Assembly: GCF_003545715.1 (NCBI RefSeq)
Contig: NZ_QVNU01000007.1
Span: 372,001 to 436,000 of the forward strand
Reading direction: 5' to 3'
From: Taibaiella koreensis
Lineage (GTDB): Bacteria > Bacteroidota > Bacteroidia > Chitinophagales > Chitinophagaceae
Length of the DNA: 64,000 bases
The first letter of the stretch is position 1. Every line of letters starts with the position of its first letter. Shown piece after piece: positions 10,112 to 17,922 of the stretch. The notes under the pieces were generated by a model. The model was not told the DNA's origin, made no database searches, and saw nothing but the letters and a program-made list of their open reading frames with translations. A program made the position numbers and the translations under genes.

Positions 10112-12217
10112 ATGCTTTACCAAAACGATGAATTTATAAAGGCAAAAGATTTATCATTTGTTGGTGTACTCCACGATTTAAAAAAGTCGCGAACTGCGAT
10201 GCAGCCGGTATTTGAAGCATTTACAAATGCATTGGAAGCAATAAAAATTAAGTCAAAGGGAGCCAAAGGCTATAAGGGTGAGATTAAAATTAGCCTTGTT
10301 GCTAAAGAACGGATAGATGGTGGAAAGGAATTTGAAAGTTTATCAATAACTGATAATGGGATCGGATTTAACGATCAAGAATTTCAAAGATTCAACACAT
10401 TTAAATTAACAACTAAAGGATTCAAAAATTTGGGATCCGGCAGAATCCAATACGTACATTTTTTTCAATCAGCAACAGTAGATAGCTATTTTGAATCAGA
10501 GAAGAAATTCTGGCATCGCAACTTTGTGGTTTCTAAAAGAGAAGAATTTCTAAGGCTCAATGCTATTGTAAAACATCGCTTTTGCAATGAAATAGAAACA
10601 GAATTAAATGAGACAACCATTAAGTTTGAGGGCTTAATTGATAATAGTAATGTCTATAACGAGCTAAATGAAATGGTTCTTAAGCAAAAATTATTAGAAA
10701 GATATTTGCCCTATCTATGCCACAACAGCAATAAATTGCCAAAAATTTCAATTGAGTTTTATGAGCAAACAGAACTAAAAGGTACCGCTACTATTTCAAA
10801 AAGTGATATACCACCTATTGATAAGAAAGACAAAATCTCCATTAATTACTATCATAAAACTGCAAAAGGTATTGAAAAGAAAGATGAGAAAGAGAATTTT
10901 TTTATTGAAGCTTTTAAGATTGAGCAGAGTCTCCTAAATGAAAACAAGCTCAATTTGGTTTCGAAGAATGAGGTCATTGAAGATTCCGCTATTCTTCTTG
11001 AAAGCTTATCACAACATGACCAAATAAAAGGTTATAAGTATCTATTTCTCGTATCAAGTGACTTCATAGATGCACGGGATACTAATCTTAGAGGTGAATT
11101 GAATATCTTAAACAGAGATTCATTTTATAAGGATGCATTTAGTAATGACTCGGAAATCTTCATCGAAGATATTCAATCCGAAGTGAATAGCAAGATAAAT
11201 GAAATGTATCCAGAAATCGAGAATGTCAAAAGAAAACATGCTGAGGATTTTGAAAAATTAAAGGAGATGTTTTTGCTTGATGATGAAACAGCGGAGTCAA
11301 TAACAATATCAATCAATGACAGTGAAACGGATATCTTGAAAAAATTTTACGAGGCAGAAGCAAAAAAGGAAGCTGCTATTGACGCCACTCTTAAAAAATC
11401 AATGGATAATTTGAATAACCTTGATACTAGAAGTCCAAATTATGACGAAGAATTAAAGAAGGAGATAAATATTTTAGTTAATGCAATTCCATTACAAAAC
11501 AAATTGGCCTTAACTCATTATGTCGCGCGCCGTAAGCTAATATTGGATTTATTCGATAAGATTTTGATGAGGGAACTGAATGTCCAGCAACAAAAGGAAA
11601 ACTATGACGAAGCTTTAATTCATAATCTTTTATTTCAGAAGGGCTCAACTGATGCGTCTGACAGTGATTTGTGGATGATAAACGAAGATTTCATCTATTT
11701 TAAAGGAAGTTCAGAAAAACGATTGAGCAAATTGGAAATTGATGGAAAGCCCGTATTTAAAAAAAGTTTTTCCGATGAAGAAGAACGTTATTTAAGCTCT
11801 TTAGGCGAAGATAGAAAAATTAAACGGCCGGATGTATTGCTATTTCCAGAAGAAGGTAAATGTATAATCATTGAATTTAAGGCACCGCATGTTAACGCTT
11901 CCGACCACTTAACTCAAATAGATAAATACGCAAATTTTATTAGAAACTATACTGAAGATGAGTTTCAAATAACTACGTTTTATGGATATCTACTAGGAGA
12001 AAATATAGAACCAAGAGACGTTTTAGGAGCAGTAAGTAGATATGAACAATCTTATCAATTTGACTATCTATTTAGACCATCGGAAAATGTAATAGGGTTT
12101 GATGGAAGGACAAATGGCTCAATATATTCTGAAGTAATTAAGTATTCGACGCTACTTCAAAGAGCTCGTCAAAGAAATAAGATCTTTATCAACAAACTCA
12201 ATCAGATCAGGAAATAA
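10112..12217 (+). CDS. GHKL ATPase fused to a PD-(D/E)XK nuclease domain
   Basis: This 701-residue protein begins with a GHKL (Hsp90/MutL/MORC-type) ATP-binding domain: N box EAFTNALEA (E35, N39), G1 motif TDNGIGF (D81) and G2-like LGSGRIQY (about 107-114). A long helical middle (about 330-540) is rich in Glu and Lys. The C-terminal part has a PD-(D/E)XK core: D574 in KRPDVLLF, then E588 and K590 in IIIEFKAP, followed by a conserved helix (HLTQIDKYANFIRN). MORC/MutL-like GHKL ATPases joined to restriction nucleases are known in prokaryotic restriction systems. ATP-gated DNA cleavage in defence is the likely role, inferred from the domains. It is divergent from the HEPN gene, A+T-rich, with the typical look of acquired DNA. 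Confidence 0.8.
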   Translation: MLYQNDEFIKAKDLSFVGVLHDLKKSRTAMQPVFEAFTNALEAIKIKSKGAKGYKGEIKISLVAKERIDGGKEFESLSITDNGIGFNDQEFQRFNTFKLTTKGFKNLGSGRIQYVHFFQSATVDSYFESEKKFWHRNFVVSKREEFLRLNAIVKHRFCNEIETELNETTIKFEGLIDNSNVYNELNEMVLKQKLLERYLPYLCHNSNKLPKISIEFYEQTELKGTATISKSDIPPIDKKDKISINYYHKTAKGIEKKDEKENFFIEAFKIEQSLLNENKLNLVSKNEVIEDSAILLESLSQHDQIKGYKYLFLVSSDFIDARDTNLRGELNILNRDSFYKDAFSNDSEIFIEDIQSEVNSKINEMYPEIENVKRKHAEDFEKLKEMFLLDDETAESITISINDSETDILKKFYEAEAKKEAAIDATLKKSMDNLNNLDTRSPNYDEELKKEINILVNAIPLQNKLALTHYVARRKLILDLFDKILMRELNVQQQKENYDEALIHNLLFQKGSTDASDSDLWMINEDFIYFKGSSEKRLSKLEIDGKPVFKKSFSDEEERYLSSLGEDRKIKRPDVLLFPEEGKCIIIEFKAPHVNASDHLTQIDKYANFIRNYTEDEFQITTFYGYLLGENIEPRDVLGAVSRYEQSYQFDYLFRPSENVIGFDGRTNGSIYSEVIKYSTLLQRARQRNKIFINKLNQIRK

Positions 12218-13726: not shown

Positions 13727-14056
13727 TTAACCTCCGCAGCCACCGCCGGGAGTAGAAACTATGGTACCGCAGGCACCCTTAAGGACGCTCTGGCAGGCGA
13801 GATTCCCGGTTGGATTACAATCGCCAGGGATCTTGGAGGTTGCAAAGTTACAAAGGTTAACAGGTTGGGTTATCTGGGTGTTAACGCAGTCTGGAGTTTG
13901 CGTTTCATGGCAAAGAGCGCAGGGACTCGTCGCATTGGACGGACAGTTCGTTGCCGTATTATTGCCGCCACCAACTGTCTGTAAGCTATTGAGGGAGCTC
14001 ACAACAGTTTTGTTTAAAAACAATTTGGCATTCAATTCGATTTTTTTCTTTTTCAT
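13727..14056 (-). CDS. GG-leader RiPP precursor, class I lanthipeptide-like
   Basis: A 109-residue peptide whose leader (MKKKKIELNAKLFLNKTVVSSLN...) has the Bacteroidota natural-product precursor pattern: Lys-rich start, L-N-K-L-LNK repeats, SSLN, then a GG(G) cleavage site at residues 29-31. The core of about 78 residues is rich in Thr, Ser, Asn and Gly and contains nine Cys, ending GGGCGG. This composition would allow several (methyl)lanthionine rings. Typical helpers (LanB/LanC, radical SAM enzyme, peptidase-containing ABC exporter) are not found in this window. The product and its modification are inferred. A LytTR/histidine-kinase pair lies downstream on the same strand side and might regulate it. 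Confidence 0.65.
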   Translation of the reverse strand: MKKKKIELNAKLFLNKTVVSSLNSLQTVGGGNNTATNCPSNATSPCALCHETQTPDCVNTQITQPVNLCNFATSKIPGDCNPTGNLACQSVLKGACGTIVSTPGGGCGG

Positions 14057-14258
14057 AGCATTTTGTTTTTTGAAAATGGTTTTAAATGAGCGTATGTGTA
14101 AACCTGGTCAATCTGGCTTTAATTTTTATAGTAGCCGAACATTGAAAAGCCTTACTGACACAATAATAGCGCTCATTTTAAATTCGGAAAAAGAAAATAC
14201 GCCGTTGTGTTATCCGAGGCCGTAGTTATGCAGGATTTGCTGCCTTTTGTGTTTTCGT

Positions 14259-15005
14259 CTAGAAGCCATCCCGGAGTTTTCCTAAGAAAGCGTCCTTTTT
14301 ACTGGCAGCCACTTCTACGATACTTTTGTCCTGCATGACTACGCTACCGCCTCTTCCGCGAATATATCGGACCATGTATTGCAGGTTGATAATATGGGAA
14401 TGATGCACCCTGAAAAATTGGTTTGACGGTAATAACGTTTCGCATTCCTTGAGCCGCATACTTGCCAGTATTTTTTTACCGTCGGTAGTAAAGAAAAAGC
14501 AATAGCTATCGGAAGCCTCACACCTGATAATATCCTGGCAGTTGAGGAAAAGATAGCCATCCAGTACCGGTATGCTGATCCTGTTGTTGTGGGTGGGTTG
14601 CAGGGTTTGCATATATCTGACCAGGTATTCATTGGTTTGCTTCTGAATGATTCGATGCTCTGCCTTAACTACCGCCTGCTGCAAAATGTCTATGTCGATA
14701 GGCTTTAACAGGTAGTCCAGTACATTTTCCCGGAAGGCCTGAACGGCATATTGGTTGTAAGCCGTTGTAAAGATGACTTCAAAAGAAAGGGTATTGAATT
14801 TCTTCAATAGATCAAATCCGTTACCATTGGGCATTTCAATATCGAGAAAAACCAGCGCAGGCCTAAGCTCCTGGATAGCTTTATACCCGTCTTCCACATT
14901 TCCCGCTGTTCCGCAAACCTGCACCTGCGGACAGTATAAGCCCAGGAGCTTGCTCAGCGTATCTATATTGGCCGATTTATCATCAATAATCAGACTCTTC
15001 ATCAT
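14259..15005 (-). CDS. LytTR-family response regulator
   Basis: A 248-residue regulator. The N-terminal receiver domain (residues 1-120) has acidic residues D8/D9, phospho-acceptor D55 (FLDIEMP) and the conserved K near 107 (LLKPI). The C-terminal LytTR DNA-binding domain (about 145-248) includes the HHSHIINLQY-like segment typical of the family. It overlaps the end of the kinase gene by 23 bases, so the two are co-translated and form a cognate pair. The first Met is used, but the second (15002) is equally possible. Confidence 0.93.
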   Translation of the reverse strand: MMKSLIIDDKSANIDTLSKLLGLYCPQVQVCGTAGNVEDGYKAIQELRPALVFLDIEMPNGNGFDLLKKFNTLSFEVIFTTAYNQYAVQAFRENVLDYLLKPIDIDILQQAVVKAEHRIIQKQTNEYLVRYMQTLQPTHNNRISIPVLDGYLFLNCQDIIRCEASDSYCFFFTTDGKKILASMRLKECETLLPSNQFFRVHHSHIINLQYMVRYIRGRGGSVVMQDKSIVEVAASKKDAFLGKLRDGF

Positions 15006-17922
15006 AGTATTTAACAGGAAGGTTAATCATAATTCTTGTTCCGGTGCCCCCAACACTTTCCTCTTCGCCGACATCAATTACCTGTATCCGTATCGGCCGG
15101 TCTCCCGACTGTAATTGATTAAGAGTAAGTATCCTTTGGTTGGTAATGGACATGCCCTTCGCGGGGAACTGCCGGCCATATTTTTGTTTCAGCTCCATGC
15201 TTTGTTTTATGCCGGGGCCGTTATCATCTATCGCACATTGCAGCATCCGCCGCTCTTCCAGGAGAATAAAGGAAACTGTCAGCTTACCTTGTATCCCGGG
15301 ATGATCCAGGCCATGCTTGATTGCATTTTCAACAAACGGTTGCAATACCATGTTGGGGATCATGAGCTCTGCCTGATTTATAAGCGGGTCAATAAGAATA
15401 ACATACTCAAATGCATCTTGTATCTGTACACGCTCCAGGTCAATATAATTGGTCAGGTACCGGATTTCTTCTTCGATGGTGATAAATACCCTCGCTGCAT
15501 TATCAAGTGTTTCCCGTACCAATGCAGCAAAACGGGACAGGTAAAAATTTGCTTTTTTAATGTCTCCGTCGATAATGTATCGCTGCATCGAGTTAAGGCA
15601 ATTAAAAATAAAATGAGGATTCATTTGTGCCCTCAATGCCATTTGTTCCAGAGACTTCATTTTATGATCAGCCATTAACGCCTTCCTCTCTTTCCGGTGA
15701 GATAGAAGAATGACATACCGGACAATCACGATGATAATGATTATGCCTGCAATTATCATTACGCTTTTGAACCAGGCGGTTTCCAGAATGGATTTTTCAA
15801 TTTCAAAATGATATCTCAGCGGTTTGCTTTCATTACGAAACTTATTAATCGCGATCAGTTCGAGTGTATATTTTCCGGAAGGTAATGAAGGATAGGTAAG
15901 CACTGTTTCCTTTGTGTATTTCCAGGTATCGTCCAAACCCAATACCCTATATTTATAGGTGATATCGCCTCCGGATAAAAAAGAAATGCCCGAATACGCA
16001 AAAGAGATGTTGTTTTCTTCATGCTTCAATAAAAGACTCCGTTGGCTGGGTTTTTTGTATTGTCCTGAAACGATAATGTCCGTCATGTTCAGATAACAGA
16101 TTCCATGAGTCTGGACTTTTCTTTCATCAAATACCGTAATACCAACCGGCGTTCCTACGTATATAAAGCTCCCATCAACATAAACCGAGTTTACAATATT
16201 TGAGTTCAGGCCGTCGCTTACCGTTATGTTTGAAACCACTTTATAGACGCCCGGTGTAATATCGATCTGGTTGAGTCCTTTTTCCGATCCAACCCAAAGC
16301 TTGTTCCCGGAGGCACAAAGACTGCTGCACATGTTACTGCTCAGGCCGGTTGAATTGTCAAAAGCGGCAATAATTTTGCCCTCTCTATATCCATAAACAC
16401 CGCCGCCATTACTTCCCACCCAAAGGGTACCATCGTTACTTTCCGCGAATGTGCTGATATTATTTTTGAACTCAGGAAATCGTGTCCCTTTGTAAAGCGC
16501 TTTACTACCATCGGAAGTTGTGTACAGGCCTTTAAGCGTACCTATATAATAAGTCTCCCCTTGTTTATAGGCACACGTCGCCCGTTCATGATAAAGGGTT
16601 TTAATAATCTTTTTGTTCTTTATACTGACAAGGAATACACCGGCACTGTTCGTAAGGAGTAATGTATCCTGAAGCGATTGCATTGTTTTTACTCCCGATG
16701 AAAATTTAGCACTCAAGCGACCAAGATTTAGAAAATCAGCATTTGCGACTTGAAAGATGGTCTGTTTCGGCAATTGCTGTAAAAAATGGTCATCTGCAAC
16801 AAACGATCTCGATTTATTTTTTGTTTCATTCTCAAAAAAAGCATCACTAATGGTATCAAATTTCCAGTAATCATTACTCTTGGTTCCGATGCATATAGAA
16901 GATCCTACCCTATGAATATCGCAAATATAAGTGTCTGCCTTTTCTTTCGTAAATAGGCTTTTAAACCGGTTTGGGCTAACTTTAAATACGCCCGAACCCT
17001 GAGTGGAAAACCAAATATTTTGCTCACGGTCTTTGATGACAGCGTTGATATCATAATCGGTAAAATAGCTGCAGGATGTCATTTCCCTGCCTTGTTCAAC
17101 TACTTTGACGCCTTTCAGGCGATTATAAATAACATACTGATGATCGTTTAAAAAAACGGTTCTATATTGCGAATGAGGCGCATATATCCTTTCATTTCCC
17201 GAGGGTGTAACAAACCAAAGTGTATCCGTGCCTGCAAAGGCGTAATACGGCTTATTCACTGATCCTGATTTACGCAAGAAGATCCAGTTAGGTCTGACCG
17301 CTTTACGGATATCATTTGGTAACATGACAAAATTGGCCGGAAGTGTACCCGAGAAAGTAGAAATATTAATTAACATTGCTGCCAACTTATCCCAGTCACT
17401 CGTTCCCCAGGGATAAGTAGTAACCTTACCTGCGGCAGTGATGATATGCGTAAAATTTGCCTCCTGAACTGTAATATTGCCATCGGGACTTTCCACTATG
17501 GCATTCCAACTCGCATGAATGTGAACCTTTTTTAAAATGCTATCATTTTCCTGGTTGTGTATCTTACCGTCTGCATAATAACAGATAGCGTCTTTAAACA
17601 TCATTAGCCATAATCTTCCACGACTGTCCTCCCAAGCATTCAGAACCTGATTACTGGGTAACCCATTTGTAGTTGTAAATGTTTTAAAACGACAACCGTC
17701 AAAGCGGGTTAAGCCTGTTTCGGTACAAAACCAGATAAAACCGTCTTTAGTCTGGCATATATTATATACGGTCGAATTAGCCAGCCCATCTTTTGTATCA
17801 TAATGGGTATAGCTATATTCTTGTGCAAATGTTCTGAGCGAAGAAAGAGCGCAGCATAGAAGAATCACAAGCAAACTTCGCATTAAGCATATGTTTGTCG
17901 AAAAATAGCGCATTTTCGGCAA
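14983..17922 (-). CDS. Sensor histidine kinase with periplasmic beta-propeller (LytS-type kinase)
   Basis: This 979-residue membrane sensor starts with a signal peptide ending at RTFAQ. Met14 at 17883 is an alternative start. Two-component Reg_prop repeats follow (for example KDGFIWFCTETGLTRFDG, about residues 55-72, and GTLWVGSNGGGVYGY), forming a periplasmic propeller. Next come a Y_Y_Y domain (about 640-705), one membrane helix (about 717-740) and a His_kinase/HATPase unit with RAQMNPHFIFN (His770) and GLDHPG...IDDNGPGI. It should sense an extracellular ligand and phosphorylate the overlapping LytTR regulator. The ligand is unknown. Confidence 0.93.
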   Translation of the reverse strand: MPKMRYFSTNICLMRSLLVILLCCALSSLRTFAQEYSYTHYDTKDGLANSTVYNICQTKDGFIWFCTETGLTRFDGCRFKTFTTTNGLPSNQVLNAWEDSRGRLWLMMFKDAICYYADGKIHNQENDSILKKVHIHASWNAIVESPDGNITVQEANFTHIITAAGKVTTYPWGTSDWDKLAAMLINISTFSGTLPANFVMLPNDIRKAVRPNWIFLRKSGSVNKPYYAFAGTDTLWFVTPSGNERIYAPHSQYRTVFLNDHQYVIYNRLKGVKVVEQGREMTSCSYFTDYDINAVIKDREQNIWFSTQGSGVFKVSPNRFKSLFTKEKADTYICDIHRVGSSICIGTKSNDYWKFDTISDAFFENETKNKSRSFVADDHFLQQLPKQTIFQVANADFLNLGRLSAKFSSGVKTMQSLQDTLLLTNSAGVFLVSIKNKKIIKTLYHERATCAYKQGETYYIGTLKGLYTTSDGSKALYKGTRFPEFKNNISTFAESNDGTLWVGSNGGGVYGYREGKIIAAFDNSTGLSSNMCSSLCASGNKLWVGSEKGLNQIDITPGVYKVVSNITVSDGLNSNIVNSVYVDGSFIYVGTPVGITVFDERKVQTHGICYLNMTDIIVSGQYKKPSQRSLLLKHEENNISFAYSGISFLSGGDITYKYRVLGLDDTWKYTKETVLTYPSLPSGKYTLELIAINKFRNESKPLRYHFEIEKSILETAWFKSVMIIAGIIIIIVIVRYVILLSHRKERKALMADHKMKSLEQMALRAQMNPHFIFNCLNSMQRYIIDGDIKKANFYLSRFAALVRETLDNAARVFITIEEEIRYLTNYIDLERVQIQDAFEYVILIDPLINQAELMIPNMVLQPFVENAIKHGLDHPGIQGKLTVSFILLEERRMLQCAIDDNGPGIKQSMELKQKYGRQFPAKGMSITNQRILTLNQLQSGDRPIRIQVIDVGEEESVGGTGTRIMINLPVKYYDEESDY

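Follow-up and report, generated by a model that had tools for sequence, protein, structure and literature searches.

A putative class I lanthipeptide precursor of Taibaiella koreensis among about 98 dispersed genes with a common leader type

The gene described here, located on the minus strand of a 64,000-nucleotide stretch of the Taibaiella koreensis genome (the window), probably encodes a class I lanthipeptide precursor that is functional and belongs to a set of about 98 in this genome with a common leader type, whose products would be modified and exported in trans. Taken singly, the gene would add one to the class I lanthipeptides of the Bacteroidota, and the system around it seems best explained as a class I counterpart of the prochlorosins. 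Our argument draws on features that can be read in the genome sequences, namely the leader and the core, the enzyme inventory, the dispersal of the precursors, the selection acting on their cores, the order of kinase, regulator and precursor, and a mosaic history of the gene. The host assembly (5.94 Mb in 24 contigs, 99.65% complete) carries the window at positions 372001-436000 of contig C21.

The precursor gene and its relatives

The target ORF is intact, with its ATG at 14056 and its stop codon at 13729-13727, and the plus-strand reading of the same interval contains two stops. Residues 1-26 match the NCBIfam leader profile NF038153 ('class I lanthipeptide') with 27.9 bits at a cut-off of 22, and the stretch LFLNKTVVSSL reads as an exact LxLxKx5L motif, followed by GGG; judged by these two features, the leader is that of a class I LanA. 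A preliminary description, made from the letters alone, had placed the leader in the Bacteroidota natural-product precursor type, an assignment which the profile bears out. It had also called the core rich in Ser, Thr and Cys, and indeed there are 5 Ser and 11 Thr next to nine Cys, all of which lie in the core and none in the leader. The core length of 78 residues given there is correct for a cut behind the GGG, a cut behind the first GG giving 79, and its being unusually long is reflected in the finding that none of the 98 cores of the genome is longer. A regular expression combining the leader, GG and at least three Cys retrieved one ORF from the window and none from 20 shuffles in three-base blocks. 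The target had no match in PHROGs at E≤0.01 and none to the Nif11 leader among the Pfam hits at E≤1; its sole Pfam match, Attacin_C, stayed below the threshold (E 0.075, 13.7 bits, cut-off 28.8) and was rejected as due to chance.

Table 1. Features of the precursor gene and its upstream neighbours (window positions).
Feature	Position	Strand	Basis
Class I lanthipeptide-type precursor (putative), 109 aa	13727..14056, stop included	-	NF038153
Leader, residues 1-30 (MKKKKIELN...VGG), with LxLxKx5L and GG	13967..14056	-	
Core, 79 aa, 9 Cys, 16 Ser/Thr	13730..13966	-	
Switch zone: orthologue homology ends, paralogue core homology begins	13910..13939	-	blastn
5' flank, alignable to that of T. chishuiensis (72%, in a segment that extends into the gene)	14057..14255	-	
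Response regulator of the LytTR family, immediately upstream of the precursor	14259..15005	-	
Histidine kinase of the two-component-propeller type (Reg_prop/Y_Y_Y), preceding the regulator	14983..17922	-	

Other precursors with the same leader, to which the preliminary description had pointed as a check, are abundant. The NF038153 profile found 98 places in the host genome at E≤0.01, 93 of them over the curated cut-off, and matched none of 14 control genomes. All 98 translate as small ORFs with a Lys-rich start; 95 contain an LxLxK-like motif by a loose pattern and 83 by a strict one, and 97 have GG at residues 19-40. Cys is scarce in the leaders (5 in 3000 residues) and makes up 13.6% of the cores, together with 12.1% Thr, the number of Cys per core ranging from 1 to 13 with a median of 6. 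The precursors are spread over 12 contigs, and for 52 of them the genome holds no core relative at E 1e-4. The nearest LanB, LanC or LanB-linked C39 gene, with the stand-alone C39 gene left out of the count, is no more than 5 kb away for 7 precursors, no more than 10 kb for 8 and no more than 20 kb for 11. Distance from the modifying enzymes is the rule in this genome, not the exception, and the target is an orphan only locally: the orphan status to which attention had been drawn is shared in that 91 of the 98 precursors lie more than 5 kb from these genes. Mining of the few genes around the enzymes would miss most of the precursors, as 90 are more than 10 kb away.

In a survey of 394 genomes of the family, in which the best candidates (at most 19 per genome) were scored, a leader turned up in 24 genomes, in 17 of them with a score over the cut-off, and LanB in 45. 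Those 17 include 15 with LanB, vs 30 among the 377 others (Fisher p 8e-14); two genomes, G140 and G292, have the leader without a detected LanB, and the 30 with LanB and no over-cut-off leader imply that LanB serves other leaders too. Among the congeners for which every candidate was scored, T. chishuiensis (G174) displayed 71 matches (63 over cut-off) and G001 60 (51), and the fourth congener, G101, has neither leader nor LanB. Outside the genus, genomes of the family sample hold one to seven leaders (again from the best candidates, at most 19), which, where there are several, are mostly close together, with the exception of G065, whose three leaders lie far apart. A sample of 395 genomes of the phylum gave the leader in nine at E≤0.001, and besides the host only G592 reached at least 19. 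Among the genomes examined, with leader counts taken from the best-scored candidates, tens of dispersed precursors were seen only in this genus.

In contrast to the dispersed Taibaiella set, G592, which belongs to the same class, has a tandem array of about 3.3 kb (C1:2257066-2260358) that comprises at least 19 precursors with this leader, whose leader scores are in many cases equal; the best 19 of 55 candidates were scored and all fall in the array, so that dispersed copies are possible among the other 36. A contig scan for relatives returned only two, T. chishuiensis and Chitinophaga qingshengii. At the locus of the latter (L119), two ORFs that look like precursors adjoin one that looks like LanC, all named by resemblance only.

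Enzymes, proposed route and known systems

Contig C21, which holds the window, gave no match to LanB, LanC or C39 peptidase. The preliminary statement that no modifying enzyme or exporter lies within the window thus stands for these three families, which is the scope of our search. Of the two explanations it had offered for this, dependence on remote enzymes is the one favoured, given that two LanBs, four LanCs and a C39-ABC exporter are encoded elsewhere, and a genome devoid of lanthipeptide enzymes, which would have told against a lanthipeptide, is not what we found. Both LanB genes were recovered by a PF04738 search and contain PF04738 and PF14028. The first lies on C16 (L069) in a locus on one strand that comprises a precursor, the LanB (1066 aa), a C39-ABC transporter (731 aa) and an HlyD-type adaptor; the precursor has the NF038153-type leader class of the target, and the relatives of this LanB in the PDB are 9g04 and 5ehk, the latter presumably MibB. 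The second LanB (922 aa) is located on contig C20 (C20:115786-117462; L096:8703-11471) beside a LytTR regulator, about 20.2 kb from the nearest same-leader precursor (C20:95483). Four separate LanCs, on C18, C10, C19 and C2, each lie less than 2 kb from a precursor and all contain the motifs LAHG, WCYG and CHG, which we take to be the catalytic His and the zinc ligands. At 407-448 aa, their open frames are too short for a LanM, and we therefore count none in the genome. LanB and LanC do not stand in one operon, the C16 locus being without a LanC. C39 matches number two, the C16 exporter and a frame of 164 codons at C10:1226182. This second match (C10:1226182-1226538, L114) is too short for an exporter fusion.

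We propose that the C16 LanB, the second LanB or both would recognise the leader of the target, that LanB would dehydrate Ser and Thr of the core using glutamyl-tRNA, that one of the four separate LanCs would close thioether rings onto Cys, and that the C39-ABC exporter adjoining LanB would cut behind GG and export the product. Dehydration by LanB, thioether formation by LanC, and C39 cleavage at GG with export are established class I biochemistry; as C21 has neither LanB nor LanC, the assignment of these enzymes to the target is made through its leader alone. We infer their action on the target, the ring chemistry and the export, and likewise a regulation by the neighbouring LytTR pair and whatever biological activity the product may have. 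In this proposal the leader alone would recruit the enzymes, so that precursor genes need not adjoin them; this would leave the cores free to vary and recombine, as is the case for the class II prochlorosins. The ratio of 98 precursors to two LanBs suggests a substrate-promiscuous enzyme. If all of the about 98 are used, one enzyme locus, the second LanB and the scattered LanCs would serve mostly unlinked substrates.

The PedA15-type lanthipeptides of Pedobacter lusitanus are known from a gene cluster, unlike the target, which lies away from its enzymes. In being class I and from Bacteroidota the two are alike, a comparison which is second-hand through the review PMC12328550, where the C39 peptidase domain LahT150 is mentioned as used for PedA15.2. 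As outlined in PMC7268733, LxLxKx5L, often with GG ends and C39 peptidases, replaces FxLD in some Bacteroidetes class I precursors, and the precursors described there came from a search that reached no further than seven genes from a LanC-domain protein. The target resembles the Bacteroidota class I precursors (NF038153) in LFLNKTVVSSL, GG, the Cys/Ser/Thr core and the presence of LanB, LanC and C39 in the genome, and differs from the described members in that 91 of the 98 precursors are more than 5 kb from the enzymes and in its core of 79 aa; certain predicted core lengths listed in PMC11251773 run from 7 to 53. The target is not clustered with its enzymes, none of which is on C21. For a LanA such clustering is usual but not defining, because prochlorosin genes are scattered as well, as stated in PMC10783134.

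The prochlorosins and synechococsins (ProcM/SyncM) come, by the account in PMC10783134, from scattered precursors, up to 83 in one Synechococcus strain. The system found here is like them in its tens of dispersed precursors (98 matches), a conserved GG leader, variable cores and one or few synthetases, but it has class I LanB and LanC instead of LanM, an L1a leader instead of Nif11, and a host from the Bacteroidota instead of the cyanobacteria. Many dispersed precursors with variable cores are seen in the host, a single LanM and a Nif11 leader are not, and the system is for this reason no member of the prochlorosins, though it would work similarly. The prochlorosin-like subfamily is moreover listed with 2-3 Cys in PMC11251773, unlike the median of 6 Cys per core in our set. 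In the literature on lanthipeptides and RiPPs in Taibaiella, Chitinophagaceae and Bacteroidota and on dispersed precursors, no such system appeared in the titles and abstract starts among the matches listed, a coverage outside which most subscription journals fall. If our reading is true, nature would have a second combinatorial system of this sort, one that exceeds the 83 precursors cited in PMC10783134 and has multi-Cys cores and unlinked LanB and LanC; peptide engineering would gain a LanB that may be promiscuous, and the diversification of unlinked precursors could be studied in this system.

The kinase-regulator pair upstream

The target follows a histidine kinase and a LytTR regulator on the same strand (Table 1), and its promoter probably lies within the conserved 5' flank. 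T. chishuiensis (L118) has the same order of kinase, regulator and precursor, with a regulator 81% identical to that of T. koreensis. The best regulator matches reach 51% in G001 and 38% in G101, neither of which has a close orthologue, and the target has no match at E≤1e-6 in G001 (best 12 of 37 candidates scored) or G101 (2 of 2); regulator and precursor are thus both present in two and both absent in two of the four congeners. In the host genome, 13 of the 48 LytTR genes have a precursor no more than 4 kb away, against a mean of 4.98 under rotation (1 of 1000 rotations). At the other three of the four distances tried the counts were 7 within 2 kb (11 of 1000), 3 within 1 kb (138 of 1000) and 3 within 500 bases (29 of 1000), and the enrichment is accordingly modest, and weak at the two shortest distances.

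Such an arrangement could mean that the target is a peptide signal which, after modification in trans and export, is sensed by its own adjacent kinase-regulator pair (14259-17922). The order kept in T. chishuiensis, the joint presence and absence in the congeners and the nearness of LytTR genes to precursors at 4 kb agree with this, as does a close regulator paralogue in T. chishuiensis (C3:33687) about 3.1 kb from a precursor (C3:37512). We nevertheless regard it as rather unlikely, as the enrichment is weak at 1 kb and 500 bases, two close regulator paralogues of T. chishuiensis (L214, L217) have no precursor-like ORF within about 1.5 kb, 82 of the 98 precursors are without a LytTR gene within 4 kb, and glycan sensing is the role that sensors of the propeller type are usually given.

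Upstream of the precursors we also looked at TANNTTTG, which we take to be a Bacteroidota-type promoter box. It precedes 23 of the 98 (shuffle mean 5.9), but equally 110 of 414 control stretches (ORFs of at least 200 aa), and therefore marks promoters; a common regulon through this box was rejected. The 7-mers AAAACCA, AACCAAA and ACCAAAA each occur within 150 bases upstream of 12-13 of the 98 precursors, at 3.6-3.9 times the frequency in the controls (n=414), and may be a translation or regulatory element. Elsewhere in the window, at 10112-12217 on the plus strand, an ORF of 701 aa revealed weak sub-threshold matches to HATPase_c and an HSDR_N-like domain, and could be an ATPase-nuclease protein of defence type.

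Selection on the cores and mosaic history

Reciprocal best hits link 44 pairs of precursors from T. koreensis and G001, and shared neighbours back 33 of these. One of these syntenic pairs, with less than 55% identity, was dropped, a choice favouring conservation, and the remaining 32 gave dN/dS values of 0.12 for the leaders and 0.08 for the cores, which are rough because dS exceeds 1. Identical core columns amounted to 179 of 185 for Cys, 228 of 267 for Ser/Thr and 657 of 905 for the other residues, and the number of Cys was equal in 28 of the 32 pairs. The target, having no partner in G001, stands outside this set and was compared with its paralogue C10:733823 over a stretch of our choosing, 66 residues beginning at the first motif with Cys that the two have in common: 42 of 66 residues are identical, 8 of 8 aligned Cys are shared and dN/dS is 0.19, and the ninth, most N-terminal Cys of the target precedes the stretch and has no counterpart. 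By these values the core appears to be what is expected of a LanA, with ring-capable Cys and Ser/Thr under selection. A homologue retaining both leader and Cys pattern, the lack of which would have weakened the case, is thus at hand in this paralogue, which keeps the leader class along with the eight Cys.

Another reading supposes a different chemistry, in which the target would be a secreted disulfide-rich peptide, exported by way of its GG leader and C39 without LanB dehydration, its Cys being oxidised outside the cytoplasm. Export alone would account for the conservation of GG and Cys, even Cys numbers are common among the 98 precursors, and the LanC genes are not found with LanB. On the other hand, the leader tracks LanB across the family (15 of 17 genomes vs 30 of 377), core Ser and Thr are kept more than the other non-Cys residues, the target itself has an odd number of Cys, and the precursor adjacent to LanB has the same leader class, all of which makes this reading improbable. 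That the target is a relic, a former precursor drifting after its enzymes were lost or moved away, as had also been suggested, is most improbable: a window without LanB, LanC or C39 matches and a distal core without homology to that of the syntenic T. chishuiensis orthologue would suit it, but the ORF is intact, the genome encodes the full enzyme set, the cores of the 32 pairs (the target not among them) are under purifying selection, and so, by dN/dS and the eight Cys shared with the paralogue, is the target core, which together with the syntenic orthologue led us to reject it.

For the functional precursor that we favour, comparison with the orthologue and the paralogue points to two histories. 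By blastn, the homology to the T. chishuiensis orthologue (72%) covers the 5' flank, the leader and the proximal core and ends at 13910, beyond which no homology between the two was found; the paralogue matches with 70% from 13939 to 13736, within the core, and its matches at the start of the leader are no more than short and weak (E 0.02 and 0.26). The core match of target and paralogue is the best of all pairs in the genome (E 7e-36), whereas their leader identity of 0.39 falls at the 42nd percentile of 4753 pairs; with the T. chishuiensis orthologue the leader identity is 0.77. From a best core match combined with a median-like leader identity, the leader and the core would seem to differ in history, with a joint near their border. 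The target thus looks like a mosaic, its leader and flank following the orthologue and its core following a paralogue with an unrelated leader. As for direction, it may instead be that the orthologue lost its distal core or that the paralogue changed its leader.

As a general rule, leader-core exchange was rejected. Of the 14 pairs with the most similar cores (E up to 2e-9), 12 have leaders at or above the 71st percentile of similarity, so that plain duplication explains most of them, and in the other two, target with paralogue and the pair at ranks 55 and 93, the leaders do not exceed the median pair in similarity. At E≤1e-4, 17 of 51 core-similar pairs have leaders at or below the 50th percentile, though the weaker core matches among the 51 may reflect shared composition. 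Tentatively, and with somewhat less than even confidence, we consider a genome-wide class I library in Taibaiella, of about 60-98 single genes per genome with leaders and cores exchangeable by recombination, on whose products one LanB-exporter locus and several LanCs unlinked to it would act in trans. In this library the target would be a recombinant of a leader and flank from the kinase-regulator locus and a core of the C10:733823 type. A further candidate for exchange is the pair at ranks 55 and 93 (C19:277921 and C18:25011), with similar cores (E 2e-9) and leaders at the 0th percentile.
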